A stretch of 64,000 bases of DNA from contig JAZBRS010000026.1 in assembly GCA_037176725.1 (NCBI GenBank), positions 151,725,501 to 151,789,500 on the forward strand. Reading direction: 5' to 3'. Below are positions 33,383-63,829 of the stretch, one piece after another; the first letter of the stretch is position 1, and every line of letters begins with the position of its first letter. The notes beneath the pieces are model-generated. The model had not been told where the DNA came from. It did not search any database and saw only the letters and a program-made list of their open reading frames with translations. This stretch comes from Posidonia oceanica. Lineage: Eukaryota; Streptophyta; Magnoliopsida; Alismatales; Posidoniaceae. A program made the translations under genes and the position numbers.

Positions 33383-34118
33383 CCGTCCTTCTCAAGGCTG
33401 GGATACCCCTGCTTTTATAGAAGCAAGGGAGGAACAATTATGAGTCAAAGGAGTCAACTCAGCAAAAGTTCCCAAAACAGAAGTGTTGAACACTGATTTC
33501 TCTGCGTTCAACGTTGAATGCTGGAAACCCAGCGTTCAACAGCCACTCGTGCTCCAACTGCTAAGGATAAAGAATATTCTCCAATAATTGTTGATTGACG
33601 TAGATTAAGCCAGTTTTAATTGGTTTGATTGGTCAACAAACTTCAGATAAGGCAAAGAAATGGATTTCAAATCTTGGCAAAAAAGGAAAGTTGATCTAGC
33701 AAATTGCCGTCGTAGAATGCTAGGAACCCAGTGTTCTACGTTGAACGCTGGAAACCCAGCGTTCAACGACCACCTGAGGTACAACTATGGATTTGGAGGA
33801 ATAATCAGCAATTAAAGGTGGATAAATGCTCTAATTAACTCAAGATTTGGCTGCTCACATGATCAACGAGCTTCCAGAAGTGGAAAATAATTTGGCTTTC
33901 AACGTAGAATGCTTGATATTCAGCGCTCAATGTAGAATGCTGTATTTTAGGCCTCTAACGTTGAACGCCTAGAACTGTGCGTTCAACACCCCAGATAAGC
34001 AATTGGCCCAAATGAGAACACTTGGATTGAGAGATAAGCCACGAGAGGCGAACTGAACATGATATGGTGCAAAGAGGTTTCATGATGATGAGGGGAGTGC
34101 CAAAATGGGATATCTACA
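33383..34118 (-). repeat. Element I 5' LTR, 5' half
   Basis: The minus strand starts TGTAGATATCCCATTTTGGC at 34118 and is collinear with 38170-38898 of element II. It contains the TATA box (33413-33419) and, upstream of it, three clusters of the GTTGAACGC family motif (33484-33543, 33712-33774, 33898-33990). Confidence 0.92.
33413..33419 (-). promoter_or_regulatory. TATA box of element I LTR
   Basis: Minus strand CTATAAAAGC, flanked by a 9-base inverted repeat. Element IV is inserted 36 bases downstream of its first T, close to the expected transcription start. Confidence 0.75.
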
Positions 34119-35359
34119 ACTCCATCTCCTCACTCTTGGCAAACAACCAGGAAGACAAATCATGTGTAGAAATAGCCTCAGAATAAGAAGAGAACTCATC
34201 TTCGTCTGTAGTTTCTTCTACCACTGAAAGTACATATGCAACTGTTGAGTAGGCATACCTTGGATTTGGGTTAATTGTTCTTCTTGATCTCCCGTTGGCA
34301 ATGTTGTATGATTCTTCTTCAACTGCTTCATCCTCTTTATGCCCACCATCGTGAACATCAACTACAACAGGTTGTGGATGCTCAGTTTCTAGCTCCACTT
34401 GCTTGGAGACACTCTCCTGAGAACCTATATCCTTAGAAGCAACAAAATCTTCCTTTGGAGATAACCAGGCTGATTCATGAAAGACCACATTCCTTTCTAT
34501 CAATAGTCTTGGAGTCTTTGTGTCAGTGCATCATAATTTATAGCCTTTCACATCGGAAGCATAACCCAAGAAAATACATTTTCTAGCTCTAGCATTCAGT
34601 TTTCCATTATCACAATGAGCATATGCAGGACATCCAAAAAATTTTAATTTAAAATAACTTGTAGGAGTGCCAGACCAAACCTCTTCTGGATTTTGAAAAT
34701 CTATGGATGATGCCGAAGAACAGTTCACCACATAACATGCAGTAAACATAGCCTCGGCCTAGAAGGATTTAGAAGACTAGCATTCAACAATATGCATCGA
34801 GCTCTCTCAACAAGAGTTTGGTTCATTCTTTTGCAACACTGTTCTGTTGAGAACTGTAAGGAGTAGTATGGTGACGCTCAATGCCTTCGTCTCTATGAAA
34901 TTCATCAAACTGTGAATTGCAAAATTCAAGTCCATTATCTGTTCTGAGCCACTTGACTTTCTTTCCTATCTGATTCTCCATTAGAGCTTTTCATTGCTTG
35001 AAGTACTTCAGTGCTTCATCTTTGTGTTTCAACATGTAGACCCATACTTTCCTTGAGAAGTCATTTATAAAAGTCAACATATATCGAGCACCTCCAAGGG
35101 ATGGAACATTTGCCGGACCCCACAAATATGAGTGAATATAGTCCAACTTGCTTTTGGTTTTATGGATACCTGTCTTGAAACTCACTCTTTTCATCTTTTC
35201 AAGTACACAATGCTCATAGAAGTCAAGTTTGCTTGTGCACTGGCCACTGAGGAGTCCCCTTTTGCTCAACAATGTCATCCCCTTCTCGCTCATATGTCTT
35301 AGCCTCAAATGCCACAATCTTGTTGTATCATTTTCAAGGTTAGGTGATGATGATGTCAT
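34119..35359 (-). pseudogene. Copia integrase, truncated by element I
   Basis: GAG-pre-integrase zinc domain (LWHLRLRHMSEKG ... EHCVLEKMKR) is followed by the core. The first catalytic Asp is lost: YIHSYLWGP has TAT (35126-35128) where copia integrases have HSDLWGP. The second Asp is in RTDNGLEF, in a segment separated by a stop (34985), and the third acidic region is frame-shifted near 34830. The C-terminal part (34749-34531, 34503-34119) reads FFGCPAYAH and RKCIFLGYASDVKGYKL then an acidic linker, ending at the insertion point. Confidence 0.85.
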
Positions 35360-35398
35360 TGATGCACTTGAACCTATGACTGTACTTCCCTACAAGAT

Positions 35399-35910
35399 TT
35401 ACAGACTCCCAACACGCTTGGCTTTCATAACAACCAAAACTCTTTTGGAAATAGTCAAAACTCCACCTTCAGTTGAGTATTTCAACCCGTTTGATTCAAG
35501 AGTGCCCACAGAAATAAGATTTTTTGCCAAATCTAGAACATAACGAACATTGGATGGTATCCTCACTATACCATCATGCATCTTAACTTGAACTGTACCT
35601 CTCCCAACAGTTTTACATGGTGAGTCATCCCCATGAGCATATCTCCACCATCAATAGATTTATAAGTGGAGCAATATCTGTTAGGACACATATGATCAGT
35701 ACAATCGGAGTCAAGTATCCACTCATTCTTGTACTTGCTTTCATTCGTGGTAAGAAAAACAAAACCGTCTGAATCTTCATCAGCAACATTTGCTTGGGCT
35801 GCATCAGGCTTGCCTTGGTTCTTATTGTCATTCTTTCTCTTTTCTTTGTTTTGTAACTTGTAACACTCCTCCAAAATGTGACCCTTCTTCTTGCAGTAAT
35901 TGCAAACTTA
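35399..35910 (-). pseudogene. Copia Cys-knuckle and protease
   Basis: The minus strand gives a CCHC knuckle CNYCKKKGHILEEC near 35910-35870, then a protease WILDSDCTDHMCPN (35740 region): the usual D-S-G is D-S-D, so the active site is altered. A frameshift near 35590 leads to ISVGTLESNGLKY, the segment before the GAG-pre-integrase domain. Confidence 0.8.
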
Positions 35911-36014
35911 GATCTTGCCTTGGATTTTGATCTGGACCTGTTCTTGCTGTTGTTTGACCCTTTCTCCACTAATCTTCCTCTTGTGAATAGGGCTTCACTC
36001 TTCACATCATCTTC

Positions 36015-36587: not shown

Positions 36588-36621
36588 CTTCACATGAGCA
36601 ATCAAACAAACCCAACAACAA

Positions 36622-36634
36622 GGCTATAATACCA
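36622..36634 (-). other. Copia primer binding site (initiator tRNA-Met type)
   Basis: Minus strand TGGTATTATAGCC two bases from the LTR end; the standard plant site is TGGTATCAGAGCC, so it differs by two transitions. Confidence 0.8.
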
Positions 36635-36945: not shown

Positions 36946-36958
36946 TTATATATTTATA
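36946..36958 (-). promoter_or_regulatory. TATA box of copia LTR
   Basis: Minus strand TATAAATATATAA, followed on the right (upstream) by the GGACGTCC motif array. Confidence 0.7.
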
Positions 36959-36966
36959 GCCTACCG

Positions 36967-36994
36967 TAACGGACGTCCATGTGGACGTCCGTTA
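36967..36994. other. 28-base near-perfect palindrome in copia LTR
   Basis: Two 13-base arms, TAACGGACGTCCA and TGGACGTCCGTTA, around a 2-base centre. Each arm holds GACGTC, the C-box core recognised by plant bZIP factors. Confidence 0.9.
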
Positions 36995-37197
36995 TTTCAC
37001 TGGATTCAAACTTTAAAATCGTAGAATGAAGCGGATGTCCGTTTTTCCACTATGGACGTTCGTTATTTCGTTGGATTCAAACTTTAAAATCGTAGAACAA
37101 AGCGGATGTCCATTTTTCCACTTTAATGATGGCATGCTTCAGCAGACATCCAGAGTGGATGTCCATTAAACTCCTGAATTGTGGCAGTATGTTGGCA

Positions 37198-37476
37198 GAC
37201 GTTCGCAAAAGCTATGTGTTGCAATAGTGTTGAAACAGACGTCCGCATGGACGTCTGCCAGGCGGTATTTGGCTAATTCATGGTACAAAACTCAACTTGA
37301 AGGATCATCAACTGTAGGAGGAGGAACACCACCTCCAAGGACGGACGTTCACAAAAGCTCTGTGTTGCAATAGTGATGAAACGGACGTCTGCCAGGTTGT
37401 ATTTGGCTAATTCAAGCTACAAAACTCAACATGAAGGATCATCAATTGTAGGAGGAGGAACACCACCACCAAGGAG
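37198..37476. repeat. Tandem duplication in copia LTR (about 135-146 bases)
   Basis: GACGTTCGCAAAAGC at 37198 and GACGTTCACAAAAGC at 37344 start two collinear units that share GGTATTTGGCTAATTCA-like and GTAGGAGGAGGAACACC words. The second unit lacks 14 bases containing one motif copy. Confidence 0.9.
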
Positions 37477-37589: not shown

Positions 37590-38898
37590 TGTGGATATGG
37601 GGTTTTGAGAGGAGAAAAGCGTTTTTCTGTGTTTGTTGCTTTCTTGGCGTCTCCTTCTATTTGTATTCGATCTGGCCACTCTCGGTTTGCTTGCGCTGGC
37701 CCTCGAGACGCCTGGGGAGATTGATCGGTGTGGGTTCAGCTACCTTGGGACAACGCCAGCATTGCCCAAGGGTACCCGTGCTTGGTGAGCTTCTTCTTCT
37801 TCTTATTTTCCTTGCAAAACAGTGTTAGAGATTCGGATTAATATGGTGTAGTAAATTATCCCAAAATAAAACTAAAAACCAACATAAACTAATCAAAAAA
37901 GTACTTACCTGAGGGGTTTTATCCCCCTGGTTGCAACAAAATATGAGTATGCCTAGCTACATCAATATGTAAAATGACATGCAATATGCAAAATACTAAG
38001 GAAGAAAACCCCTTTTAGTCTAAGAAATGTGATGTGGTCGGAGAAAGAAGAAGGCAAGCTCTTTGGCTCTCTCTTTCTCTCCAATTTCTCTCTTCGAATT
38101 TGTGTCTCTCTCTTAATTCTAATTTTCGGTCTTCCCTCACTCCAAAAATCCATCCTCCTGATCCCTTTTTCCGATCCCTTTCAAGGCTGGAGTACCCCTA
38201 CTTTTATAGAAGCAGGGGAGGAACAATTACGAGTCAAAGGGGTCAACTCAGCAAAAGTTTCCAAAACAGAAGTGTTGAACGCTGATTTCTCTGCGTTCAA
38301 CGTTGAAAACCCAGCGTTCAACAGCCACCCGTGCTCCAGCTGCTAAGGATAAAGAATATTCTCCAATAATTGTTGATTGACACATATTAAGCCAGTTTTA
38401 ATTGGTTTGACTGGTTAACAAACTCCAGATAAGGCAAAGAAATGGATTTCAAATCTGGCCAAAAAAGGAAAGTTGGTCCAGCAGATTGCCGTCGTAGAAT
38501 GCTAGGAACCTAGCATTCAACGTTGAAGGCTGGAAACCCAGCGTTCAACGACCACTTGAGGTACAATTGTGGATTTGGAGGAACAATCAGCAATTAAAGG
38601 TGGATAAATGCTAATTAACTTAAGATTTGGCTGCTCACTTGATCAACGGGCTTCCAGAAGTGGAAAATAATTTGACTTTCAACGTAGAATGCTTGATATC
38701 CAGCGTTCAATGTAGAACGCTGTGTTTCAGGCGTATAATGTTGAACGCCTAGAACTGTGTGTTCAACACCCTAGATATGCAATTGGCCCGAATTAGAACA
38801 CTTGGATTGAGAGATAAGCCTTGAGAGGCGAACTGAACATGATATGGTGAATAGAGGTTTCATGATGATGAGGGGAGTGCCAAAACGGGATATCTACA
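37590..38898 (-). repeat. Element II 3' LTR (1309 bases, intact)
   Basis: On the minus strand it starts TGTAGATATCCCGTTTTGGC and ends CCCCATATCCACA. It has a TATA box (38202-38208) and motif clusters at 38275-38326, 38490-38551 and 38676-38769. It serves as the undisturbed reference showing that 10388-10996 and 33383-34118 were once joined. Confidence 0.92.
38202..38208 (-). promoter_or_regulatory. TATA box of element II LTR
   Basis: Minus strand TATAAAA between inverted arms CCCCTGCTT and AAGTAGGGG (one mismatch). Confidence 0.75.
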
Positions 38899-39029: not shown

Positions 39030-40345
39030 GAGGGTCAAATTAAAGAGACATGGCCAAGGACGTTGCCCGAGGGGGTCAAGCTAAAGGGTACGACTTCGGG
39101 CGTTGCCCAAAGGAAACAAGCTAAATAGACACGGCCAAGGGAGTTGCCCAAGGGGGTCGAACTAGGAATGAAAAGACACGACCGAGGGCGTTGCCCACGG
39201 GGGTCAAACTAAAAGACACGGCCAGGGGCTTTGCCCGAGGGGGTCAAACAGGAATGAAAAGACACGACCGAGGGCATTGCCCACGGGGGTCAAACTGGAA
39301 ATGAAAAGACACAGCCGAGGGCGTTGCCCACGGGGATCAAACTAAAAGACACTACCAGGGGCGTTGCCCAAGGGGGTCGAACATGAAATGAAAGGACACA
39401 ACTGAGGGTGTTGCTCATGGGGGTCGAATTTAAAAGACATGGCTAGTGGCATTGCCCGAGGGGGTCGAACAGGAAATGAAAAGACACAGTCGAGGGCGTT
39501 GCCCACAGGGGTCGAATAGGAAATGAAAAGACACGACCAAGGGCGTTGCCCATGGGGGTCAAATTAAAAGACACGGCCAGGGGCGTTGCCCAAGGAGGTC
39601 AAACTAAAAGACACGGCTAGGGGTGTTGCCCACAGGGGTTGAATAGGAAATGAAAAGACACGACCGAGGGCATTGCCCATGGGGGTCAAACTGAAAGACA
39701 CGGCCAGGGGCATTGCCCGAGGGGTTCAAACTAAAAGACACGGCCAGGGGCATTGCCCACGGGGGTCAAACTGAAAGACACGACCAGGGGCATTGCCCGA
39801 GGGGGTCAAACTAAAAGACATGGCCAGGGTCGTTGCCCGAGGGGGGTCAAATAGGAAATGAAAAGACACGGCTGAGGGCATTGGCCACGGGGGTCGAACT
39901 AAAAGACACGGCCAACGGCATTGACCGAGGGGGTCAAACAAGAAATGAAAAGACACAGCCAAGGGCGTTGCCCACGGGGGTCGAACTAAAAGACACGGCC
40001 AGGGGCGTTGCCCGAGGGGGTGGAATAGGAAATGAAAAGACACAGCCGAGGGCATTGCCCGTGGGGGTCGAACTAAAAGACACAGCCAGGGGCGTTGCCC
40101 AAGGGGGTTGAACAGGAAATGAAAAGATACGGCCAAGGGTGTTGCCCATTGGGGTCGAACAGGAAATGAAAAGACACGGCCAAGGGCGTTGCCTACGGGG
40201 GTCGAACAAGAAATGAAAAGACATGGCCGAGGGCGTTGCCCACGGGGATCAAACTAAAAGACACGGCTAGGGGCGTTGCCCGAGGGGGTCGAACAAGAAT
40301 GAAAAGACACAGCCGAGGGCATTGCCCAAAAGAGTCAAACTAAAA
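39030..40345. repeat. Tandem array with GGGCGTTGCCC core, about 30 units
   Basis: Two unit types alternate: about 40 bases (CTAAAAGACACGGCCAGG, core, GAGGGGGTC) and about 47 bases (AGGAAATGAAAAGACACGGC, core, CACGGGGGTC). The core GGGCRTTGCCC is self-complementary at its ends. Long ORFs through it are only the repeat read as peptide. Confidence 0.93.
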
Positions 40346-41107
40346 CACACGACAACCAGCACTAGGACGAGGAAGTTAATAGGAGGATGGGAGAGATCGA
40401 TAGTGAAAGTCTCTGACCACGGGATGCGAATGCAATGTAATGCGCTTTGCATGGATGCATGCTGGTGGAAATGCAAGGGAAGTGATCATGATATGCAATG
40501 CATGACTCTAGATAATGAAGTTCCTCCATCATTGCCAGCTTTGATTTGTATACCGGGATGGCTCAGGAATTTTTCTCGTTATCTGGAGCGAACTGACACA
40601 TGTATGAATGCAATTCGTCATAATCAAGAGCCCTTTCATTGAGTGTAGCCTACACTCTCCATAGTGACCGTCGTCCTATGACACGCAAGTTAATGAGTGA
40701 GAGGTCCGTGATGCTCTTGGGTGTCGGGCAAAAGGGGGTGACCTCTCCTCTGCTAGTTGCATTGGCTTAATTTCTCCGATTGTGTACCAGAGATTCTGGA
40801 TTGCCTTTTGTTCTACTTTGGAGTGTTGAACGCTTGATTTGCAGCATTCAATGTTAAACATGCATAACCCAGCGTTCAACGTTGAACGGCCCAGCGGTTG
40901 CGTTTAATGTCTCGAGACAGGCTGCTTTTCCTTCCTTGCTTGTTATTACCAATCCAGCAACAAATCTCTAATTTGTTGATTGTTTCCCTTCTTGTGGGGG
41001 TACCACGGACTATCTTAAGCCTCCCTCCTTGGTTTGAATTTTCAAATCATCAGTAACTCTTTTCTTTTTCAATTCTTTCTGTTTTCGAGGAAATTTTGGC
41101 TATCCTC
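40346..41107 (+). promoter_or_regulatory. Upstream region of antisense gene A (element II)
   Basis: No coding sequence. A motif cluster at 40825-40890 (GTTGAACGC, GCGTTCAACGTTGAACGG) is followed by a T/C-rich stretch to the ATG at 41108, as in a plant promoter and 5' UTR. Confidence 0.5.
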
Positions 41108-42462
41108 ATGGATTTGAGTGAGATTCCTTGTCATGCTTTCAAGGTAGCCAACTTCTCCTCTCCTTCTGACCAAGTGCAGCTTCAACTAGGGGCTATGCCT
41201 AATCACCTGGCGAACCTTCTGGTGAATGGGAAGGTACCATTTATTCATTTTTGTATTATTATTTCTTTTCGTGCTGCTTTTCTGTTGTACCGATCTCCCT
41301 TTCCCTTTGTAGCCTCTAGCTTCTTCGTATAGTGACTGAGATGGTAAGGCCTATCAACTGGATTGGGTCCAAAGTTTTCGCACTTGGGCGCTAAAGAAGT
41401 ACCAAGAACACTTGGAGGAAGTTGGCTTTTGTCAAACCCTCCGGCAACTGCGGCAGCCCATTGACTAGAAGGCACTCTTTGGTCTTTGTGGGCTATGGAA
41501 CCCCCTTACTCATACATTTTTCACTTCTTCGGGGGAGCTTACTGTTCTTCTAGAGGAGGTAAGTGCTTTATTGGGCACTCGACAAGCCGATCCCTCCGTT
41601 TATTCTAGGGATGCGTATCTTTTACCAACTAGGGTGGTAGGGTCCTCTCTTTTGAAATGCATCTTTGGTTCCGTCGTTGTTCCAGAGGATCTGGTACTGG
41701 ATGGCTACATCAACCTTGCTTCTCTGTGGAAATTCTTTTCGAAGCAGCGGGACAACATTCGTTCTGAAGCCTCTTGTTTGGAGTGCATCTTCATTCTGAT
41801 TGGTGGGCTGGTGCTTTTCCCAAACGAGGCTTTGACCATTAGTGCATATCATGCCGAGCTCATGTGCATGAGCGTCCGCAATCCAGAGAAGAGTTTGAGT
41901 TAGTCTGTGCTAGCCTTCACTATTCGTGGTTTATCCAGTGCTTGCCTTGGGGGGGCATTCTTCGGGTCGCCTTTTCTGGTTCAGGGTGGCTAGATGAACA
42001 TATTCTACTACCTGCTCTTGACGATGGTCTTCCTCTCAAGGAGTATGTTCGTCGGTTCTGCATATGCGAGGTCGAACCCCATATAGATTCTTTTAGTCAC
42101 CTCTCAACATTCGGATAGCATATGATCCTAAGTACTTCTTGACGCTGGTTGGGGCGACAGAACTTGTGAGGTACAACCCCCAATGCTGTTTTTCCATGCT
42201 GGGCATTCCTTGGGCTATACTTCCCATGCCTCGTTTCCCAGATATGATCCTTCCGTGCCTAAGGGACACCCCTTGAGATATCGCTTAAGTTTACTTTCAC
42301 ACCGGCATCTGGGATGGAAAAGGACGGAGCCGTGTCCTTTCTTCATGGGACAATCCGAATGTGGACCATGAAGCCTTCTCCAATGCTACTCATGATGTTT
42401 GGTACGAGGGTGTGAGACCCAAATTATGTATTGAATTGCCTACCAAGAAACAAAAGCTGTAA
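41108..42462 (+). pseudogene. Antisense PMD-like gene A of element II
   Basis: From the ATG at 41108 (MDLSEIPCHAFKVANF ... MPNHLANLLVNGK), a GT at 41234 starts a probable intron ending at 41312, 41319 or 41332. Beyond it, over several frames, come GLWNPLTHTFFTSSGE then LTVLLEEVSALLG, CIFILIGGLVLFPNEALTI and LTLVGATELVRYNPQ, each matching gene D of element III (FWIGSSNTFN, GETLITCEEVSSLLG, CLFVVVGGLALFADANF, LVLVGATSVVLYS). The last segment ends at TAA 42460-42462, followed by AATAAA at 42478. The gene is frame-shifted and non-functional. Role unknown; PMD proteins act in transcriptional regulation. Confidence 0.7.
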
Positions 42463-42477
42463 TAAGTTTTTTTTTTT

Positions 42478-42582: not shown

Positions 42583-42795
42583 ATGCGTTGAACGCTGGAG
42601 CTGGCACGTTCAACATTGAACGCGTAGAACCCTGCGTTCAACGTTTTATCTTCCTTGGCACGTTGAACGGCCCGTTTCTTGCGTTCAACGTTTTATCTTC
42701 CTTGGAGCGTTGAACGGCTTGTTTCCAGCATTCAACGAGTCGTCTTCCCCGACGCGTTGAACGGCCCAGTTTGTGTGTTCAACATTGAATGTTAT
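42583..42795. promoter_or_regulatory. Dense GTTGAACG/CGTTCAAC motif cluster upstream of gene B
   Basis: At least nine copies in about 210 bases, in both orientations (GCGTTGAACGCTGG, GCGTTCAACG, GCGTTGAACGGCCC). Two copies of TTTTATCTTCCTTGG lie between them. It directly precedes the gene B ATG at 42919. Confidence 0.9.
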
Positions 42796-42918
42796 AAAAC
42801 CTTTGTTTTACACAACGGGCTGCTATCTTGCTTGCTTTTCTCCTTCTTCTCCGACGACTGCGACTCCTCCTTTTCCAGCAACGACGTGCGGTGGCTGCTT
42901 CATTCCTTTTTTGTGAAA

Positions 42919-44052
42919 ATGCAACGGTTCAGCAAGGTGTGTATGAAACCGACGAAACATGCCCGGATGGGACCGTCCTCCCCCGGTGAGCTTGGGGCGG
43001 CTCCATCCGAGACTCCGGCGATTGTTCTGGTGGTGACAGAGGCGGCGACGACGGTCATGGAGGGCACGGCTATGGAGGGCATGGCTATGGAGGCAGAGGC
43101 GGGGGTTGCCAGGAGAGTAGTCGTGGAGGTAGAGGCGGGGGTCGCCGGGGACGCAGTTGCGGCGGTAGCGGCGGTTCCAACCGTGAGCTCTGGTGGCACC
43201 GAAAGCTCAGGGGAGGAGTCCCTCATGCTGTTGGGGGAGGACTCGGAAGAGACGGCGTCAGTGGAGGTAGTGCCTGAGGTGGGACCCTTAGAGCCCCTCG
43301 TCGTCTAGTTTGGCAAGGAAGACGCTTGGTATCGCACCATTCTTGATTCCGTTCAGCAGGAGGCAGAGGGTGGTGCCATGGATCCCTCGGACATCTCGTG
43401 GGCCCACATTCCCCGTGACGAGATTCACGTATCGGGACCACGTAGGGACGAGTCCCGTATCAAGTTTGCCACTGCTATCCTTGCGTCGAGGGGCCAGGTA
43501 ATATACTTTCTTTTTCAAATTCTTTGCCAGTTAATTTGATTATTCTACTTGTTTGACACTTTTCTTTTATTTTGCAGAGTTGGGCCCCGGGGGTGACTCG
43601 CTGCTACTGGGGGCAGGTCTGCCGGTGCTACCGGATGCTAGCTCCTTTTCAGCAGGAGCGCATGGCACGGATGGGGTTCGGGCACTTTCTGTCCATCCTA
43701 GCATTTCCCCTTCGGCCTATGTTCCTGGAGGCGGTCGTGGAGCAGTACAACTATCGGACCAGCTCCATAGTTACGAGGGCGGGCGAGTTCATCCTTTCAT
43801 TGGAGGACATGGTTTGGCTAACCGGTCTTCGAGTTACAGGCTGCCTGGTGACTGGACGGGTTCGCTCAGACTACATCGTTATGATGATGGAGCTGGTGGG
43901 TAGTCAGGTAGTTATGCATGGACCCCACCTTCTGGTTATTTCTTCCGCTGTCAACCGAGTCAAGGACTCTTTTGAGACGGCGATGGGGCTAGTGTGGATG
44001 CGGATCAGCAGCTTCGGGCTTTTCTCTTGGAGCTGTCCGGGAAGGTTCTCTT
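42919..44052 (+). pseudogene. Antisense PMD gene B of element II, cut by element III
   Basis: Exon 1 (42919-43497) starts MQRFSKVCMKPTKHARMG, has an Ala/Val/Glu-rich low-complexity part, one TAG at 43306 and ends LASRGQ. A clean 80-base intron (43498-43577, GTAATA to TTTTGCAG, phase 0) precedes exon 2: SWAPGVTRCYW, RMARMGFGHFLSI, AGEFILSLEDMVWLTGLRV (PMD core), and, after a frameshift, DADQQLRAFLLELSGKVLF. The match to exons 1-2 of the element III gene C (ELAELGQ|MPLSS; DIADQQLRLFLSILFHRLFF) includes the intron position and phase. Element III enters right after GKVLF. Confidence 0.82.
43498..43577 (+). other. Intron 1 of gene B
   Basis: GTAATATAC donor, T-rich body, TTTTGCAG acceptor; 80 bases, phase 0, same place as the 59298-59391 intron of gene C. 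Confidence 0.8.
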
Positions 44053-44429
44053 TGTAGATATCCTATTTTCGCATTTCTGAGAGTTCTTCTGAGGATAGAA
44101 ACCTTGAGGTGCCCCAAATCTCGTGCCTAAGTTTTGATAACACATCTCCCAGATATTCCTTGACTTCTTTAAGGCATCACTTGAGCCTACCTAGACCCAG
44201 GTTGTTGGCTGTGGCAGAGCTAACTCATTTAGGCTCGTAACAAGTCTAAGTACCCTGGGTATCCTTCAATTCTGCTCAGATTTAAAACTAGATTTGAGTT
44301 AACAGAGATGCCTCCTTGATTTCATAGGCTATCTGTAGTTTCCCGGCCTTCTATCTTGTTTCCTCTGGCCAAAACCTTGGAAAAGGGCTAGAAATGACCA
44401 AAGCTTGATAGTAGCCAGTTGGGGAGGCG

Positions 44430-44890
44430 ACCCAGCTAGTTGCCGCCTAAAGAGGCGACTAGGGCCGTCGCCCATTGCCTAGCCGACTGCTATAGAAGCC
44501 ATCTGAGGAGGCGGCTACGTCAAAAGCCATTTGAGAAGGCGACCCATGTGGATGTCACTTGGCAAGGCGACTGGGCGATCGTGGGCAGCAGATGCTTCAC
44601 ACGATCCCCTCAATCCTTAAGCGCTAGCTCACGAGGCGGCTGAACGGTTCTGGAATCGCCTCGGTCCTCCCTACGATCCTTGACCATTAGGCGTCACTCC
44701 ATGCGGCGACTAACAATCATGGCTCCTCTTGAATTGCTTTTCCACAGTTATTTCCCACTACCCCCTTGACCGCTAGGCGCCATCTTAATCGGTAACTAAC
44801 AGTCGTGGCCTCGTTCCCAGGTCTTCTCACACTTTGACTGAGCGGTTGCTAGCCCTAGGCGCCACCTGAACCGGCACCTAACCCCAACTA
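44430..44890. promoter_or_regulatory. AGGCGACT/AGTCGCCT motif array in element III U3
   Basis: About fifteen copies or variants in both orientations (GAGGCGACCC, GCCGTCGCCC, CGGCGACTAAC, TAGGCGCCA), ending about 50 bases upstream of the TATA box. Confidence 0.85.
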
Positions 44891-44942: not shown

Positions 44943-44950
44943 TATAAATA
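44943..44950 (+). promoter_or_regulatory. TATA box of element III LTR
   Basis: TATAAATA followed by GACCCCC; the only good TATA box in the LTR. Confidence 0.75.
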
Positions 44951-45605: not shown

Positions 45606-46869
45606 GCTTTAGCCAACCCCCGTGCTACGTAAGCAAGCTTCATCCCTCCTTTCCCCTTTCATTTTCATAGATCTAAGTGTAGTTTTCGTTTCGGGTAACC
45701 GTGCGTTTAGGTTTTCGCGGTACCCCAGACCACTTTCTGTTTTTTTTTCTTTCCTGTTTCTAACATCAGTAAAATCCCAAGCTCCAATAGCTAGGGCTAA
45801 TTTACTGAGGTTAGAAGACTGTGCTGCGACCCGCTTGTCCTAGCAGCGTCCTCCCTAGTCGCTCCTCCAGAGGGCGACGGACAAAGATGCCAGTTATAGA
45901 GGCGACCTCACCAGTCCGTTTTTTTCTGCAGACCTTTGGTTTTTTTCTGTATTTTGTGTTGTATTTTTAGATCTACAGTAGCATAAAAAAAAGAATTTAA
46001 AACAACTCTCCATGTCCACTGTGTTTTAGTTTTTCAACAGTTTTTAGATTTGCTTGTGTCCACCCTTAAGGTGGAAACTAATTGTCTAATATTAAAGTGG
46101 AAGTTCCTTGAGGTAGTCTTCCTCTAGCTAGAACATTTAATCTGAGTGAACCCAGGCCAGTGCAAGTCGCTCTCCCATACTCAGTATTGATTGTAATAGC
46201 TGGATCAAGATCTCAAGGTGTCCTAAGTTTTATTATTGACTCCTCTTCCTCCTTGAGTCAATATTAAGGCTTGGTAAATACTTTACACTTTAGTATTTCA
46301 TGTTTACTTCCTGCTTTATGGTTTGTTAAGTGCCGATCCTAAGGACAGAATCCTAGGTGGAGGGTCCCTCTTTAGAGAGACAAGCCCCCCATCTAGGCCC
46401 CTCTTGGTGGACCCTAGAGAAGGTCAAGGAGGAGTACCTTAAAGCCAACCAATCCTAGTTACTTGTTACCCACATAGGTTTAATTAATCAATTCCTTAAT
46501 TAAACACTTAAACAAGTAAAAGCAACGCATTGTTTGAAACCTGTTCTCTTTTCTTTCCTGACTGTTGCGTGGTCTGTCCAAGACAGACCTAGTTTCCTGA
46601 CTGAACGAGAGGCACAGCCACCCGTTCAGGAGGCACCTCGCTCAGCCGCCGGTGAAATCGGCGACTTGTTTGGCCGCCTGTAAAACAGGCGACTACAAGG
46701 GACCTTACGTTTTGGTGCCTTGCTTGCAGGGGTCTATGCATGTTACTGTTCACAGGGTGGTAAGCTCGAACTGTTTTAATTTATGTTAAGTCTCTTTCAT
46801 TCCATCGAGTCTGTATTAATTAGTGTTCCTTGAGTCTGTAATTTCCTTTCAATCTTCTGTAATAGTCTA
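45606..46869 (+). other. Untranslated leader of element III
   Basis: About 1.3 kb without coding sequence, containing AGGCGAC motif copies at 45840-45910 and 46590-46700. Confidence 0.55.
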
Positions 46870-50700: not shown

Positions 50701-51385
50701 CAGGGACTCAACTGCTAAGGCCATAAACAATGTCAAAAAGGTCCTTGCACCCAAGAGTATTGATATAAATCAATATGATTACCCCGACCACATGAAAAGG
50801 CCTTGCGAGATTCTCCTCAAGATAGGGTACACCGTGGGGAAAGGACTTGGCCGCCAAAAACAAGGAATGAGGGACGTGCTTGAAACGCCTGAGGAGCGCA
50901 GTCATACCGGGCTCGGGTACCTTGGGCAACCAGATCCAAGCAAACCTCTAGCATGGTCACTTACCAACCACTTCATATCAGTTGGGCTACAAGTGCATGA
51001 CAAACAAGTGTCAGACACAGTTCCCAACCTCCCAGCAACAACAACGGCTGCAAAAGCCTCTAAGCCTGTCATCCTCGGCACTCTTACAGATCCCGAGACG
51101 GCACCAACTCCTTCTCCTTGTCCAGAAGAAGTTCCAATCATCCTCAATGCTCAGACGAAGCCCGAGGAAGGGGCATCAACCTCTTGCACAAAAGAGGTCC
51201 CTACTGCTCTCCCCACGTCCCCAAAAGCTCCTTCACCTCCGGACATCCAAGCAAGCGATTCTTCCAAAACCTCCACTGAAGGAACTAAAGCAGAGGACTC
51301 CGACCCTGTCTGCGAGCTCACCTGTCTCTTCAACAACCTACGGCCTTGCCCCTCTAAGCAAGAAGGGGCCGGGGCCACAGAGTAA
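50700..51385 (+). pseudogene. Element III G-patch and Ser/Pro/Thr-rich linker
   Basis: MKRPCEILLKIGYTVGKGLG, RQKQGMRDVLE and HTGLGYLG form a clear G-patch. A linker rich in Pro, Thr and acidic residues follows and ends at TAA 51383-51385. It is the end of the long gag-pro frame; pol resumes in another frame near 51740. Confidence 0.72.
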
Positions 51386-56771: not shown

Positions 56772-59593
56772 TCAATGACCGGACTCACCGCTACTCTCGC
56801 GTCCACCGCTTGGAGGCCTCGGCGCAGGCTGCACCACAGAAGACGTCACTCCACTCCGACTCCTCTCTCGAGACTCCCTCAAGATGGAGCGAACCTTCTC
56901 AAGGTGGGGAGAAGACCGCGCTCTTGCGATTTGCTCAGCCGTCAAGACCCTAGAATGCCCTGACCCCGTAGGAGCTGCAGCAATAGGGGCAGGCATCAGA
57001 TCAGCCACATCAGCACCAGGAAGCACTATCGCAACCATTGTCTCTGTCTGCATCAGCCGTATCTCCATTTCCCGCATTTGCCGCCCATGGAAATCGCTCA
57101 ACTAAAATAAAACAAATCACAGAATTAGAGCAGTTTATAAACAGAAAATAGAAAGGCTAGCTACAACTAAAGCATTAAAGACAGAACAGAAATACCCTTC
57201 TCAGGGAAGTAGCCTCAAACTGATCCCTAGCCGCTACCACATCAGATGCCGCCACACGAGCCTCTAACTCCTAGATACGGCTCTCGTGCTGGCTCAGGCA
57301 CTCCTGTAACTCATCAGCATGCCCCAAGGCATCGTCAAGCTGACTCTGAGTGGGACCCATGGCTGGAGGGGTGTGAATCATCTCCATCATCGCCTGAATC
57401 TGTAGAGAAAAACAGGATCACGTAAGCCCAAGGACATATATTCAAAGCAAGGAAAAGAGTAGAAATACCTCTGAATTGCGAGCCTGGACCTCCTCAGCAA
57501 GCACGCCCTCGGCATGCGAAGCGACTGGACCTGTGGTGGCAGTAGGGGTAGGCTCTGCACTCGTTGAAGCACCCTCAACCTATATCAAAGCAAAGACAAC
57601 AATTAGACAAGCAGAAACAGGCACAAACAACTAACAAGAGGAAACTAGACTCACTCGTGCTCGAAGCTCGTCCATCTGGGACAGGAGCTCATCCCTCTCC
57701 CGCACCAGCTCCGCCACTCTCAAGGAGTGCTGCTCCTGCTGAGTCCTGAACGCCTCAGTCATCCCCTCTGAGGCGTCGATCTGCGCAAACAAGGAAGATG
57801 CGTAAGCAAAGTGAACAAGTAAAGGAGCAGTAGAATAACACAACACCAAAAGGGATTGCTTACCAGCTCCTCAATATGGCTGCGGGCAATCGCTAACTCG
57901 TGACGAAGGTCGCCAATGCTCACACTAGGACCAACGCCCATTGGTACGTTGGAGCGACCATAAAAGACGTCACGGTGGAAGACAATCAGACGGCTAAACT
58001 TAGAATCAAACCAGGTCCTCCAGGCTACCTCCGTCTCTGCAGAACCACCAGAAAGGGGCTCTATGCCACCCGAGCGCCAATTCTCGAGCTGCTCTCCAAA
58101 CCACTGAGGAGTATCAGTCCGACCTCCCTAAATGGATCCCCGAGAGCAATCCGCAGGACTTGCCACCAGAACAACCTGCCGAAGACCGAACTGTCGCAGG
58201 ACACGGCCCACCTGGCAGTAGTGACATCGGAAGAGGCTAAAAAGCCAGCACTCTCGAAAGAACAAGTGGGAACCGCGTGCCACGGGCTCCTCATCAGCAT
58301 GCTCACCCTCAGAGTAGGGTCTCCAGACAACCTGCAAGCACAAATCAGTCAGAAACCAGTAAATTGTGTGGAAAAGAGGGATCTAAGCATTGAAACTCAC
58401 CCACTCCTCTGAAAGGATCTCTAACAAAAAGCGGCCCAGGTGTCTTATAGGGCGAAGCCGCTCCGGAGCCCACTGCACCTCGCTCCACCGTCGAGCCCGG
58501 GGAAACTCGACGGGACCATCTCCTGGGACTCCAGGTCAAAGGTACACAAAGTGCTCAAAAATCCAGGCCTATCACACAAAGGAACAGTTCAAAGTCAGCA
58601 ACAGTCAAACAAATAGAAGGCAAAAAATAAATAAAGCACAAACTTGAAAAAGGGGCAAACAGTCTGAAAGAGAGCGGGTCTGGCCCGCAGCAAAAGACTC
58701 CAACCAAGAGATCAGATAGACCAACACGGCTGAACCCCAGGAGTATCTACCAATCCTCTCCACATGCAGAAGGAGAGGGGCAAAATCGGCATGTAACATC
58801 TGTGAAGATGTGCCGAAGAAGAGTCTATGAAATAGAATGGACAAAAAGAGTCGGAGCTGCTGATCCGCTATGTCCGGGGTCACCTCGTCAACAAGAAGAA
58901 GGTCGTCCAGTCGGTCCTTCGGTCACTTGACGTTGACGCGTGTATGGAAACGACCAGAAGGGGGAGGTCGTGCTCCATAACAAGCCTCTAGCTCGTCACC
59001 ATAGCAGGCCTGCAAAGGCACCACCACAAGCTCTCCGTCAACCCTCAGTCCCACCAGTCGAACTACGTCCTCCAAGGTGATCATCATCTCGCCCACGCGA
59101 AAGATGAAGCTGCCGGAACTCTTGTTGTACCTCTCAGCAAAAGAAACCAGAAGTCTGAGGTGAATCTCAAAGGGCATAATCTCTAAGAAATGGCCAAAGC
59201 CCATCCCCACAAGTCTCGCCCACTGGAACTCTGGGAGGTCGATGTACGTCTCATGCAAGTCATTCCAGCTAGAGCGTGTCCGGCTCGACAATGGCATCTG
59301 GCATAAAAGAAAACATTAAAAACATTAGTAACTTAATAACAATCAAGCAAAGTAACTTAATAAAAGCCAAAAACATATAAAATAACCTCACTTATCCTAG
59401 CTCTGCGAGCTCTATCGCTGTACGGGCTCTCCTAGGAGGAGAAGGGACCGCACCTGAATCGGGGACACCCTCGTCACCAACCTCAGGCTAGACAGGAGAC
59501 GGTGCCCGGAGCTTGCGGGGACGAGAGGAGCTCACCTCCGCAGTGGAAGGACCAGCCTTGTCCCTCCCTGTCTCAGCCTCCTCGTCAGAAGCC
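56772..59593 (-). pseudogene. Antisense PMD and coiled-coil gene C of element III, at least eight exons
   Basis: Exons on the minus strand: 59593-59392, 59297-58644, 58568-58401, 58331-57864, 57780-57655, 57579-57469, 57399-57196 and 57101-56772 (stop TGA). All seven introns are 69-94 bases, GT-AG and phase 0. The PMD spans exons 2-4: GMGFGHFLEIMP, GEMMITLEDVVRLVGLRV, ERIGRYSWGSAVLVYL, FPRARRWSEVQW and VGRVLRQFGLRQ. Exons 4-8 read as coiled coil (ELAIARSHIEEL, VAELVRERDELLSQMDELRA, EMEIRLMQTETM), then a Ser/Arg-rich tail. Six in-frame stops (two in exon 1, one each in exons 2, 3, 4 and 7) all fit C-to-T at Gln or Arg codons. PMD proteins act in nuclear gene and transposon silencing; here the role is unknown. 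Confidence 0.82.
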
Positions 59594-60821
59594 CTGAAAT
59601 GGTGTCACAAGCAGAGCATGGTCAGTTAAAGTCATTAATAATCTCCTTAATTGTTTCCCTGAACATTAAGTAATCCACATAACCAACGAAAAGGAGAAGA
59701 AAGACATCACTTTAACTAACCAACTTAAACTTAATCCCTTTAAATTGATCCTTAAAAGAAATCCCAAAAATTAAAACTCCTAAAATTCAACTTTAATTCA
59801 ACTTTCAAAATCCAACTTTAATTCCACTTAAAAAACCCAACTTTAATTCAGCTTTAATCCATCTTTTAAAAAGTCCATCTTTTAAAAATTCCACCTTTAA
59901 GAGTTCATCTTTTAAAGTTATAAAAGATCATCATTTAAAAGTCCAACTTTAATATCCTAACTTTAAAATTCAAAATCCAACTCTAAACCAACTTAAACCT
60001 TTCACTAATCCATTTAGGTAACAAAAATATCATTAAATCCTTTATTCTCAATTAACAAACCAATTAAAGCTTAACAATTAAATCCTTTTACATGTTTAAA
60101 CCCTAAAATCAAATCCCCACATTTAAATTCCAAAAATTAATAAAATCTCTTAAATTTCTGGGAAAAATTCGCCATAACCTCCCTTATAATTTCAACTAAA
60201 AAATTTTTCATTTTCCTGCAAATCAACAACATACATGCACATTTCCACAAAAAAGACTAAATAAACGTCCATATCTCCATAAAAATGGATTTCCATTCAC
60301 ATTCCACATAAAAATTACCATTCCCCTTTCACATTCACATCATCATTTTAACATTTTAAGCATAACTCTAAATAACTAAATAACTGAATTAAAGCCTAAA
60401 TTTAAACCAATTTTCCATGAACTTAAACCAAATTAAGTTTAAACCTAAATTTCCACAATTAAATTTGAATATAAGCTTCCACAACTAAGCCAAATTTAAA
60501 TCTAAAAAAAAAATTCCACAATAAGAACTTAAAAATCCAGGTTTAACTAAAAGACAGAATCTTTAACCAAAAACAGAATTTAACCAAGAAACCGAATTTC
60601 AAATTTCAACCAAAAATTGAAATTCATTGAACCAAAACTGAAATTGGACTTTAATTAAAAACCGAATCTTAATTAAACTAAAACTAAAATTAAAATGTCC
60701 ACAATAAACCTAAATTAAAAATTTCTGTGATGAGTTCAAAACCTGAAACCATTCTAACTCATCCAGATTAACAATAAGAAAACAAAAAAAAGGGGGAAGA
60801 AGCCCCAAAGCTTGCTACTAC
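59594..60821 (-). other. A/T-rich stretch upstream of gene C exons, possible large first intron
   Basis: Strongly A/T-rich on both strands, without ORFs; the coding strand is T-rich like plant introns. The acceptor CACCATTTCAG precedes the exon at 59593. Confidence 0.45.
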
Positions 60822-60987
60822 CCGCCGACGGCCCTCCTCCGGTGAAGTCACAGTTGGCTACAGATCCCGCCGACCACGTCACAAGAACAATGGGAGAGGA
60901 AGGAGGAGGATGGAACCTCCTTCGCCGCCGAGAACCACCGTCCGAACCGCCGCCGCTCGCGTCACCTCCGCTGCCGCCGCTTGCCAT
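60822..60987 (-). other. Possible first coding exon of gene C
   Basis: ATG at 60987 opens MASGGSGGDASGGGSDGG then RRRRRF, Gly/Ser and basic, followed by a candidate GT at 60821. The phase does not match the next exon with this donor, so the exact exon is unresolved. The G+C-rich base composition contrasts with the flank. Confidence 0.3.
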
Positions 60988-61139
60988 TGGAGAATGGGGA
61001 GGAAGGGGAAGCGAAGCCGCCGTACCGCCGGAAGCTACTGCACCAGAACCCGAGGTTGCCGCTGAAACACCAGAGAGCACTGCTGGATGAAGGAGAAGGA
61101 AAAGAAAAGAGTTGGAAGCTCTGGAACACAGGCGTAACG

Positions 61140-61340
61140 GTCCAGTTTTGCAACTAGACTCATACCCTGGTCGCCAGAAGAAGAGGCGACTCATTTAGGC
61201 GGCCCCGCAATCGGCGACTAACCCTTCAGCTTCTTCGCGCGCCGACTTTCTCGCCTCAGTTTGAACCATCAAGGGAGGCGCGACGCTAGATGCCCTAAAA
61301 AGAGGTGACTGGCTCAGGTGCCAAACGGAGCGGTGGCTAA
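61140..61340. promoter_or_regulatory. AGGCGACT motif cluster upstream of gene C
   Basis: About seven copies or variants (GGTCGCCA, AGGCGACTCA, CGGCGACTAAC, AGGCGCGAC) in 200 bases, between genes D and C, on the upstream side of gene C. Confidence 0.8.
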
Positions 61341-61609
61341 AAACAGCAGAGAATTTCATCCATTAATTCCCCTCTAAAATACAAACCTATACATTAACAA
61401 ATAACAAAACACAATTCAGGAGCTAAAATGTAATTCAACCCCAAACTCAAATTCAAGAACTGAAACATAATTCAACCCAAGCTTGAACTTAAAACTAAGA
61501 CATTATTCAACTCCACTTAAAATTAAAATTTAAATCAACCATGCATTGCCATGCTCGAGCGGTTGAGCCCAAGCATCTTCAGGAATTCCCGCCTATCATC
61601 AGCGTATTT

Positions 61610-62894
61610 CTAAGGAGTGGGGCAGCACTGTGCATACCACTTCACATACTTCGCCTCCTGGGACTCCCGAGCAGTTGCAGAAAGCCGAGGCGCACTCAGA
61701 GACACTCGCCTACCGATGTAAACCCAACGTGCTATGTACTCCAGGACCATGCTCTCATCTCGATCACCGACTTCCTTGCGAACGCGGATCGAAGGGGTCA
61801 GAACTGCATCAGCCTGGACAACTAGCTCCTGATTCAGCAGACGTGAACAACGATGGATGGAATATAGCACTACTGATGTGGCACCCACCAGGACGAGCTC
61901 AAGGTCACTGTGAACTGTGCTCATCACCCACGCCTTATGAGCTCTAGGCAGCTTCGGAACAAAGTCAAAATCCTGTAGTGACAAGCGTCCCAGACGAAGA
62001 ACGGAGTCATGGAAGCTTAGGCCTGCGAAATCTATATCACAACAGCAATGGGACATGAACCACCTATGTAGCAGTAGTGGAGAACCAAAGAATTTCCCTG
62101 AACAAGAGGCACTGGTGAGCCCCTCCATGGTGTAAGCCAACACAGCAGGAGCCAAGCACAAATCTAGACGAACAGCAACCAACATCAAGAGATCCACATG
62201 GTGAGGATCCATTGTGAAATTTGCATCTGCAAACAAGGCAAGGCCACCGACTACCACAAACAAGCACTTCCTCAGCTCGGCCTTAGCAAGTTGCCTGGTG
62301 CTAAGAACCTCCCACAAGCCTCGAAGAGAGAGCCTCCATGAGTGCATCAAAGCCTTGCTAGCCTCCTGATCCATTGCTAAATACCCGCCTATCTTTTTGG
62401 AGCCCACTGTCTCAACAGAAATGGCAAAGTGATTATCTGCCGCTTCAGTAGATTCCACCGCCAACCCAAGCAAAGAGGACACCTCCTCACATGTGATCAA
62501 TGTCTCCCCACAAGGAAGATTGAAGGTATTGGAAGAACCAATCCAGAAAGCCATCAAGGCATGCAACAATGGCCAAGGCACAGGCGTGCGAATCAAATCA
62601 AGTAGCTTGTCGAAACCACTACACCCGAAGAGATGCCTATTATTCTCTACACGATTGATCAAGCCAGCCACCCATGGCAGAGTATACCGGAAAGAATTGT
62701 GGAAGTCCAGGCATCCCGTGAGGTTCACTACGGCCTAGACAAGCAACCATCAGAGGCAAAACCACAAAGAAAAGTATGCAAAGACAAAGAGGAAAACATA
62801 CCCGGTCATCCAGGATAGCTTTCATCAAATGGTTGGGGATATGAACCACCCTCTTCACTTGGAAGGTCGAAGAAGAGAAGGAAGGAAGCTTCAT
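61610..62894 (-). CDS. Antisense PMD-like gene D of element III, two exons, intact
   Basis: Exon 1 (62894-62802, MKLPSFSSSTFQ ... ILDDR) and exon 2 (62734-61610) are joined across a 67-base intron (GTATGTTTTCC to TTGTCTAG, phase 0) into a 405-residue frame without any stop. I choose the ATG at 62894 over an in-frame one at 62951 because gene A starts at the matching place (MDLSE). PMD-like features: LLHALMAFW (about 87-95), GETLITCEEVSSLLG (107-121), CLFVVVGGLALF and LVLVGATSVVLYS. It is the only undamaged frame of this size in the window apart from parts of gag and RT. Gene A is its counterpart in element II. Function unknown; nuclear regulation is plausible from the family. Confidence 0.72.
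62735..62801 (-). other. Intron of gene D
   Basis: 67 bases, GTATG donor, T-rich body, TTGTCTAG acceptor, phase 0. Confidence 0.8.
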
Positions 62895-62951
62895 GGTCAA
62901 GATAAAGGGTTTACTTGTGTAGAATGCTTTCCGAAAAGAAAGGACAACCAT

Positions 62952-63829
62952 CTTTTATCTCCCTTTATCAAAAGAATCAAGGTTTAAAACGGTTTCTGAA
63001 TTAAATAAGCCAGGAGATCGCGCGTCGCCCCAAAAACCGGCGACTAGAATAGCCACCTAGTCAAGAGGCGCCTAACTCATCAGAATAGACCATCTACTAC
63101 TGCGGAGCCGAGAAGTGAACTCTTGCCTTGAGTTCACGCACCACCTGCCGCAACTACTGCGAACACCAGACGACACATCGGGTTGGCAAATGAAGGGTTC
63201 ACTCCCTCACCCAGTTCTCTTTGCATGGAATCTCTTTACTTGCCAAATCAAGCTGTGGGACGACGGTCCTTTCCAAAGAGTGCTGGTCACACTCCGGGAT
63301 GGAAAACACCTGACCACAACGAATCACATTCATTCATTTTGCATATGTCCATATGGTTTGGGGCCAACCGTACCCCGCCAGCCTAACCTAGCATATGGAC
63401 CATTCATTGCATTGCATGTTGACCTTGCATTATCATCGTGTGTTTGAATCATCCATCCATGCATTTTCTCATATCATTGGAAGTGGAGCACGGATGGAGC
63501 ACTGTTCTTCAAGAGTGTTAGAAACCCTTCAGGCATATGATTCTCCCAGAACCAAGCCAGTTCATACCTACCCTCTTATCAATTCCAATCTGAGTGAAGT
63601 CTCAAACAAGATGTCACACTCTCCTTTCGATCGTGCCGGAATAACATCCCGCGATTTTCTCCTTAGTGCTTGCCCATTGGAACATCTCTACATGGTTGAC
63701 CTAGTCTTGACTTTGGCTGCGACACAAGATCCGAAACCGACTTGACCCCTCCATGCCTGAGTCTCCAATTTGACGGCAATTTAAATCCTCTTTTATCTTT
63801 CCTTTGGTTACTTTAGTGGTGTAGACACC
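62952..63829. other. Upstream region of gene D and end of element III
   Basis: AGGCGACT-type motifs at 63010-63080 (CGTCGCCCC, CCGGCGACTAG, AGAGGCGCCTA) lie just upstream of gene D. The rest (63115-63829) shows no recognised gene; the plus-strand ORFs of about 110 codons have no family features. Confidence 0.5.

Follow-up and report, generated by a model that had tools for sequence, protein, structure and literature searches.

The 64-kb stretch of Posidonia oceanica DNA analyzed here (contig JAZBRS010000026.1, positions 151,725,501 to 151,789,500, hereafter the window) was revealed to be a nest of long terminal repeat (LTR) elements, whose borders were drawn by reading of the sequence and by comparison, and three of these, elements I, II and III, carry arrays of short inverted dimers that are the subject of this report. 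Element I, on the minus strand, encodes gag (8047-7493), protease, a G-patch stretch, reverse transcriptase (RT), RNase H with a second RNase H, and integrase extending to 1009; its open stretch 2373-3080 contained RT_RNaseH and then RVT_3, with Integrase_H2C2 next (1696-2250). Element IV (10996-33382, minus strand) is inserted in the 5' LTR of element I, which is thereby split into a U3 at 34120-33383 and an R/U5 running from ~10995 downward, and because of this insertion the leader of element I lies to the left of element IV. A copia fragment is located at ~37596-34121. Element II, also on the minus strand, comprises a 3' LTR (38905-37597), tandem repeats (~39030-40350) and two antisense genes, and is interrupted by element III on the plus strand, which begins at ~44079. 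The RTs of elements I and III were ~79% identical, and primer-binding sites were found at ~10384 and 45585, respectively. On the basis of the position of the second RNase H, which is common to Retand, and of the plant mobile domain (PMD), the array-bearing elements are probably Ogre-like Tat (Ty3/gypsy) retrotransposons. The covered passages on the Ogre group describe an extra RNase H between RNase H and integrase, shared with Retand, together with a PMD (PMC6317226), which 57% of Ogre elements carry; of the clades of PMD, two are encoded by Gypsy elements only (PMC6317226, PMC5418596).

In elements I and II, the motif proved to be an inverted dimer, GTTGAACGC-N10-GCGTTCAAC, forming a 28-bp unit with a 10-bp spacer. 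At no more than one mismatch, GTTGAACGC occurred 46 times in the window versus 9.7 expected, a count reached by none of 100 shuffles, and its convergent pairs were concentrated at spacer 10 (21 pairs, versus at most two at every other spacer from 0 to 30). Looser matching returned 29 rows, of which 27 were I/II dimers in seven stretches, namely two U3s, three leader groups and the regions upstream of antisense genes C and D, and two were set aside, a lone match with a 4-mismatch arm at 26239 and a dimer shortened by 7 bp at 38295. The dimers mostly abut, which results in a 28-bp step, and a 47-bp step was seen in part of 42583-42795. When a palindromic gapped motif was fitted to hand-picked I/II stretches, spacer 10 was chosen unprompted (720 bits), and the fit to the U3s gave 191 bits versus a maximum of 77 in six shuffles. 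Furthermore, a matrix trained on the two U3 arrays found 14 further matches scoring at least 8 in the 64 kb, every one of which scored at least 18.0 and fell either in the leader of element I or ahead of the element II genes C and D.

The U3 array of element I (33485-33987, minus strand) contains seven dimers in groups of 2, 2 and 3, and the TATAAA of its 5' LTR (33414-33419, minus strand) lies 65 bp past the last of them; the same distance separates the TATAAA of element II (38203-38208, minus strand) from the U3 array of its 3' LTR (38274-38767, minus strand), which has six intact dimers and the one shortened by 7 bp. The held-out matches constitute three leader arrays of element I, each of two dimers on the minus strand, located nearest gag (8885-8940), in the middle (9289-9344) and nearest the primer-binding site (10048-10103), as well as the plus-strand arrays upstream of element II antisense gene C (40825-40908, three abutting dimers) and gene D (42587-42783, five dimers with 28- and 47-bp steps), the latter being followed by TTATAAAA at ~42792.

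The motif of element III was likewise an inverted dimer, TTAGTCGCC-N9-GGCGACTAA (gapped-motif fit to picked stretches, 366 bits), and its neighboring dimers step by 28 bp as in I/II. Exact matching made little of it: the 8-mer AGGCGACT was weak (5 versus 1.5 expected, with one of 100 shuffles reaching 5; four of the five in element III), and exact inverted repeats were not enriched in the element III U3, which such a scan overlooks. The gapped dimer scored 175-178 bits in the U3 versus a shuffle maximum of 83, and 201 bits in the leader and antisense-gene regions versus a maximum of 90 (six shuffles each). With a matrix trained on the U3, 16 held-out matches of at least 8 were obtained; 11 belonged to the leader of element III or to the sequence preceding its genes C and D, of which nine scored 16.9-22.4 and the other two 12.0 and 8.3, and the five elsewhere scored 8.3-12.4. 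The U3 array (44408-44881, plus strand) has ten dimers, the first six at exact 28-bp steps, and the TATAAA (44943-44948, plus strand) is 61 bp past the last one. Held-out matches on the plus strand comprise a single leader dimer past the primer-binding site (45855-45881, score 17.5) and a leader array of three dimers at 28-bp steps, the first of them weak (46614-46696; 12.0, 17.4 and 21.9), and those on the minus strand comprise the arrays upstream of antisense gene D (61167-61340, 2+2 dimers at 28-bp steps) and gene C (63021-63075, two dimers at a 28-bp step).

A sequence-only reading of the window had placed motif arrays directly upstream of the LTR TATA box in I/II, III and the copia element, and the dimer, matrix and word counts against shuffles bore this out. 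Its further proposal that the motif recurs in the gag leader and again ahead of each antisense PMD gene was confirmed by the U3-trained matrices, which recovered these sites and little else in the 64 kb. The positions it quoted (40825-40890, 42583-42795, 61140-61340 and 63010-63080) were correct; its overall range left out the three leader arrays of element I. The copia array (36970-37391, minus strand) consists of CGGACGTCC-like palindromes upstream of the copia TATA but lies off the 28-bp lattice. At no more than one mismatch, CGGACGTCC had 18 matches versus 4.5 expected, 14 of them inside this array; as CGGACGTCC is nearly palindromic, most places were counted on both strands. Grouping the copia array with those of I/II and III was rejected on account of its other sequence and geometry, and it is probably separate from their system.

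In the antisense regions of both element II and element III, an array and gene C (PMD) come first, followed by a second array and gene D (PMD). In element II, gene C (41469-41900, plus strand) matched PF10536 with E = 7.5e-5, below the Pfam cut-off, and was 27.9% identical to gene C of element III (E = 3.7e-11). Gene D (42667-44054, plus strand) has an Ala/Gly-rich stretch (42667-43305) and a PMD part (43557-44054; E = 7.3e-6, below the cut-off), which we take together as one gene, truncated by element III at ~44079. In element III, gene C (61613-62734, minus strand) encodes a PMD protein with a PF10536 match above the cut-off (E = 1.9e-10), and gene D (58608-61194, minus strand) has a Ser/Gly-rich stretch (60757-61194) and PMD parts at 58926-59315 and 58608-58922 (E = 2.8e-13, above the cut-off, and 1.9e-7, below it), which are presumably exons of a single gene. 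No relative of the element III PMD protein was found in the protein database at E 1e-3 among 8,000 candidates scored.

We then examined other copies in the genome. From 25,275 first-look candidates, 110 copies of element III gene C were scored and 30 loci, including that of the window, were cut out. In all 30, genes C and D were each preceded by at least one dimer scoring at least 13, and the neighbor gaps below 60 bp, 70 in total, were without exception 28 bp; further dimer matches elsewhere numbered one in L022 and two in L051. As these copies are close to one another (at least 90% protein identity), they are not independent. Among 15 loci chosen for an exact I/II dimer, of which L008-L011 overlap or repeat one another, 31 pairs had spacer 10 (the selected ones included), two had spacer 11, and none had any other spacer up to 30. 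Ten of the 15 aligned at ~65-90% with the window, either in the leader or U3 or around gene C or gene D, L009-L011 aligned over less than 100 bp, and L008 and L016 gave no alignment; in L019 and L021, one 10-kb stretch holds the array of the U3 together with those of genes C and D. A stretch in L018 (8119-8660) that hardly aligns with the window also carries the I/II dimer, with variants such as GTTAAACGT and AATGGACGC, and is perhaps another element using this site.

The two motifs, which the sequence-only reading had considered different in sequence, turned out to be variants of one framework; only that of the copia array truly differs. The variants share TTNNNCGC, and the framework half-site is GTTRDMCGC. 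Exact pattern counts across the 2.96-Gb genome gave 307, 65,123 and 123,619 GTTNNNCGC-Nk-GCGNNNAAC dimers at k = 9, 10 and 11, versus 71, 5 and 117 for reversed-pattern controls. The III form, with an inner CGC-to-GCG spacing of 11, was found at 33,270 places (control, 26), and abutting divergent half-sites at 81,048 places (control, 9), those with 2 bp between them at 43 (control, 538). Since this last control exceeds the forward count, reversed patterns are an imperfect null, and the contrast between spacers 9, 10 and 11 is the better control. Among the k = 10 dimers, the first 100 listed had a constrained central triplet, with R in 197 of 200 half-sites, then never C (200/200), and then A/C (193/200); both arms had the same triplet in 33 dimers (permutation mean 14.2, maximum 26) and non-matching ones in the remaining 67. 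Exact copies of single sub-types occurred at 1,375 and 2,082 places. Judged from these sequences, the family motifs are sub-specificities of one framework and not unrelated sequences.

The distribution of sub-types was assessed in 16 elements chosen regardless of the motif, by occurrences on a single contig of the primer-binding site TGGCNATCACGGTGG (of 9,840 genome-wide), the first nine having the G variant of this site and seven the A variant. Matrix scans identified TTAGTCGCC/N9 in nine elements and GTTATACGC/N10 in five, and a free fit to L069 gave GTTGGACGC/N11 with a 29-bp step (163.5 versus a shuffle maximum of 142.1); one predominant sub-type was thus present in the U3 of 15 of the 16 elements, in three variants, to which GTTGAACGC of I/II adds a fourth. 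The window had served to train the GAA and AGT matrices, whereas the ATA matrix came from the U3 of L059, whose own U3 matches therefore arise by construction. The sub-type was found also in the leader stretch taken in 12 of the 15 (no leader match of at least 14 in L057, L060 and L065), and foreign-matrix matches of at least 14 were confined to one dimer each in L068 and L069. Under a rule of at most 4 mismatches of 18, which returned one dimer across four types from 80 shuffled sequences, ATA-type elements gave 1-3 GAA-type matches each, because these half-sites differ by two bases, and L066 gave two GGA-type matches. By the same rule, the 600 bp before the primer-binding site held no dimer in any of the 16 elements; 6-bit motif fits placed a few weak sites there (for example L061 1227, L065 1224, L066 743 and 1232), none of which passed. 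In a tree of the R/U5 and early leader (18 rows), five labels needed four changes, which is the minimum and was equaled by one of 200 shuffles; the TTAGTCGCC group formed one clade with full support, the GTTATACGC group had support of 81/81, and the AGT clade was well separated from the GAA/ATA/GGA clade. Such turnover of the motif on a fixed lattice along the element tree would be compatible with coevolving binding sites, and the proposal of family-specific sites at the same landmarks was upheld in the window and in the sampled copies, alongside a very large genome-wide excess of the framework.

The geometry at the LTR promoter was also nearly constant. In 20 of 24 distinct elements, representing all four sub-types, the last dimer ended 59-65 bp before TATAAA; the exceptions were L055 and L014, at 72 and 85 bp, L057, in which no TATA fitted, and L064, which lacks an array. 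A further TATA-like match was present at 2, 83, 25 and 94 bp in L059, L066, L015 and L006, respectively, and the last dimer of L062 has 5 mismatches. The 24 were counted after dropping L019, which is the same element as L015, and leaving out L008-L011, L016 and L018 in spite of their dimers, and five GAA-type loci among them had been picked for alignment with the window U3. The constancy of this distance partly reflects common descent, yet the AGT and GAA/ATA/GGA clades are well separated. At the antisense genes, a clear TATA accompanies the array at element II gene D only, 8 bp past the last dimer, with a weaker AT-rich stretch near the array at element III gene C and none seen at the other two; apart from that clear TATA, the antisense promoters are putative.

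The dimer, its spacing, lattice and placement, the one predominant sub-type per element and the genome-wide abundance are observations, and arrays of this kind at the own promoters of a large retrotransposon group look like a switchboard for a regulatory protein. In the mechanism that we propose, a paired protein would read two inverted GTTRDMCGC half-sites 10 or 11 bp apart, and dimers that abut or nearly abut would form rows on a 28-29 bp lattice. Such rows precede the LTR TATA by a nearly constant interval, and they are also found in the gag leader and ahead of both antisense PMD genes. A single protein could thereby set the sense and antisense promoters jointly, in auto-regulation or anti-silencing of its own family, and the family-specific central triplet would provide a separate switch for each family. 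We consider the chances about even that the arrays are such dimer operators of Ogre-like Tat elements, coordinating sense and antisense promoters probably via an element-encoded reader. A site read as DNA in two halves fits best, since the half-sites and their spacing are fixed, the spacer sequence is free, the arms are uncompensated, and the triplets are mismatched in 67 of the 100 listed dimers. The reader would be encoded by the element, because the same sub-type recurs across the compartments of one element while families differ, and the PMD products of antisense genes C and D would be the first candidates for the reader or a part of it, because their genes are flanked by arrays. Activation, auto-repression and anti-silencing would be indistinguishable on these sequences. 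In the covered passages on Arabidopsis, MAIN/MAIL1 are linked to a promoter motif, direct recognition being proposed there as a hypothesis only (PMC7156037). More tentatively, we suggest that an entire plant LTR-retrotransposon clade possesses its own trans-acting switch, in which antisense proteins, probably PMD, read GTTRDMCGC-N10/11 operators on a 28-29 bp lattice and couple the promoters, and in which triplet change avoids cross-talk, much as restriction or homing specificities diversify; if so, with 188,742 exact dimers (k = 10 and 11), few protein-recognition sites in a plant genome would be as abundant as this one.

Several observations weigh against this interpretation. In I/II copies, the identity of half-sites (0.829) was above that of spacers (0.705) but barely above that of other non-coding DNA (0.807); in III copies, half-sites, spacers and flanks were 0.801, 0.723 and 0.789 upstream of gene D, and 0.842, 0.714 and 0.913 upstream of gene C, where half-sites thus fall below the flanks. 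Between the U3s of elements I and II, half-sites were the least alike (0.911, versus 0.939 for spacers and 0.927 for other positions), and in L005 they reached 0.911 versus 0.947 for the spacer. CpG decay may cause this low conservation; on these figures, the arrays change fast overall, and the half-sites are mostly held relative to the spacers. Triplets are mixed in some elements (L020, L054, L067), and specificity may therefore be loose. The genomic framework dimers were counted over the genome as a whole, and Ogre-like elements may hold only a share of them; the leader arrays are not at a known promoter, and L064, on the longest tree branch, has no recognizable array despite the same primer-binding site. 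For the proposed reader, no DNA-binding role of PMD was found, and a structure model of the gene C PMD protein was set aside as unusable (mean pLDDT 35). Element IV, which serves as an internal negative case with a sense PMD at 18421-19164, had no comparable array in three 500-bp stretches, taken from the U3, the leader and the sequence upstream of the PMD: the first scored 103 versus a shuffle maximum of 86, within tandem repeats, and the other two were within shuffles. A second PMD family likewise had no 28-bp-lattice array in two copies, L052 and L053, scanned without shuffles. A PMD gene alone therefore does not bring an array.

Some neighboring features are recorded here in their own right. 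L020 (45-8366), which is ~69% identical to element II around gene C, shows the same framework with the mixed triplets GTA, ATA, GGA, GAA, AGC and TGA, and may represent a specificity in transition. The LTRs of element IV (10996-14766 and 29583-33382; 3.8 kb each, 90.9% mutual identity) contain 210-bp tandem repeats upstream of a TATA at ~11930, and its 3' region (16192-17167), downstream of the sense PMD, contains ~70-bp tandem repeats with palindromes such as GATAAGTTATCGGACTTATC, which scored 249 bits versus a shuffle maximum of 87. The second PMD family recurs on contig G000:C62 at ~0.37-1.86 Mb, often in ~25-kb steps, resembling a tandem array of a long unit; L052 is a copy from this contig and L053 one from another. 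The tandem repeats of element II at 39030-40350, which adjoin the 3' LTR, have steps of 40, 47 and 87 bp. A G-patch domain lies in the protease-RT interval of both element I (4486-4986) and element III (50417-51382).

The arrays might instead be enhancers for a dimeric host transcription factor, the families recruiting different members of one factor family. The near-constant TATA distance of the U3 arrays, which resembles that of ordinary promoters, the framework common to the families and the mixing of triplets in some elements would all agree with such sites, as would the GACGTC core of the copia array, which we take to be a plant bZIP-type site. We nevertheless regard host-factor sites as unlikely, given that within one element type a single sub-type recurs in the U3, the leader and the sequence preceding both antisense genes, and that it differs by family on a fixed lattice; no host factor is known to have a 28-bp lattice of 9-bp half-sites.

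The dimers could also act in the genomic RNA as stem-loops, each with 9 bp of stem and a loop of 9-11 nt, that serve packaging, dimerization or export. That RNA should include the 3' LTR U3 as well as the leader and the antisense-gene region, the leader position suits packaging, the framework dimers can pair at their GTT/AAC and CGC/GCG ends, and in four of 12 regions (three I/II arrays and the copia array) inverted repeats exceeded all 200 shuffles at both settings. The arms, however, showed no compensatory change (permutation p = 0.55 for 27 I/II dimers and 0.44 for 20 III dimers), the stems of III retain a mean of only 5.7 of 9 Watson-Crick pairs, and the triplet mismatches in the listed genomic dimers and the near-constant distance to the TATA, which would not be required of an RNA element, point in the same direction, making this explanation improbable. 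Neutral growth, in which functionless short palindromes multiply by slippage or template switching, would account for the units that are local tandem copies (47-bp steps, 42662-42783) and for arrays that outpace adjoining DNA in change, as upstream of III gene C; we consider it very improbable, as spacer length and half-sites persist while spacer sequence varies, the arrays recur in several distinct compartments but are missing just ahead of the primer-binding site, and the TATA distance is near-constant across diverged families. We give least credence to silencing handles, in which the host would set DNA methylation at CpG-rich palindromic arrays and site turnover would be escape, for although each half-site has a CpG and many of the 59 I/II half-site changes fall at it (13 C-to-T plus 9 G-to-A), loss of sites would benefit the elements and yet the many exact single-sub-type copies persist.

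A precise, family-specific site before both the antisense genes and the LTR promoter gives the antisense genes a candidate target; the role of these genes, kept by many Tat elements, is described as an open question in the covered passages (PMC7264820, PMC11963269). If the reader is encoded by the element, circuits of self-regulation or anti-silencing comparable to those of VANDAL and Spm transposons would exist in LTR retrotransposons, the host PMD proteins MAIN/MAIL1 would gain a plausible ancestral activity, and the sites would permit annotation of family specificity across genomes.

Regularly spaced, often palindromic regulator sites near promoters are familiar from the papillomavirus E2 sites, the EBNA1 repeats and the 21-bp repeats of HTLV, which we cite as an analogy only and not as a sign of relatedness. 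Searches found no match of the element I LTR in plasmid records, and no RT relatives and no match to the III dimer pattern in viral contigs; two viral-contig matches, L001 and L002, which are of ~70% GC and hold one identical exact 28-mer, were read as chance. In maize Spm/En, the sequence around the promoter of the element contains repeats of a motif in either orientation, to which TnpA binds. Unlike the elements here, Spm/En is a DNA transposon whose binder is known, and it is not known to have a fixed dimer lattice. Activation of a methylated promoter by TnpA is named in the title of a 1994 report by Schlappi.

Closer relatives resemble the present elements in their coding parts. The second RNase H and a PMD in an extra open reading frame, antisense to pol in elements II and III, are as in the Ogre clade, whereas cis-motif arrays do not appear in the covered passages on Ogre (PMC6317226, PMC5418596). 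Retand/Tat elements, in the portions of the descriptions covered, carry antisense genes and tandem repeats in the interval from pol to the 3' LTR, and regulation by the antisense protein has been proposed for them (PMC11963269, PMC7264820); the antisense genes and tandem repeats of the elements here occupy the same region. The antisense protein is TRP28 there and PMD here, no Transposase_28 (PF04195) match being found in 12 antisense-side open stretches scanned in elements II and III, and the covered text contains no half-site arrays in U3, leader and antisense regions (PMC11963269). Such arrays were not described in the open-access titles, abstract starts and passages covered, most subscription papers lying outside this scope, and the 9-mer appeared in unrelated contexts among the matches listed.

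The most apt precedent, in logic, is that of the VANDAL transposons suggested by the sequence-only reading. According to the covered passages, Arabidopsis VANDAL families have 8-9 bp family-specific motifs repeated in their own non-coding DNA, and VANC21 binds its own motifs in vivo and in vitro, and VANC6 in vitro (PMC5735166, PMC10398659). As there, related families here differ in a short motif repeated in the element's own non-coding DNA. Unlike VANDAL, the hosts here are LTR retrotransposons with RT and integrase, in which no search for a VANC homologue was made, and the sites, which lie at the LTR and putative antisense promoters, are inverted dimers of fixed spacing with a candidate binder only; neither "palindrom-" nor "spacing" occurs in the VANDAL main text (PMC5735166). 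What would be new is therefore element-specific recognition arrays with a strict dimer lattice in LTR retrotransposons, following a logic known from VANDAL/VANC.

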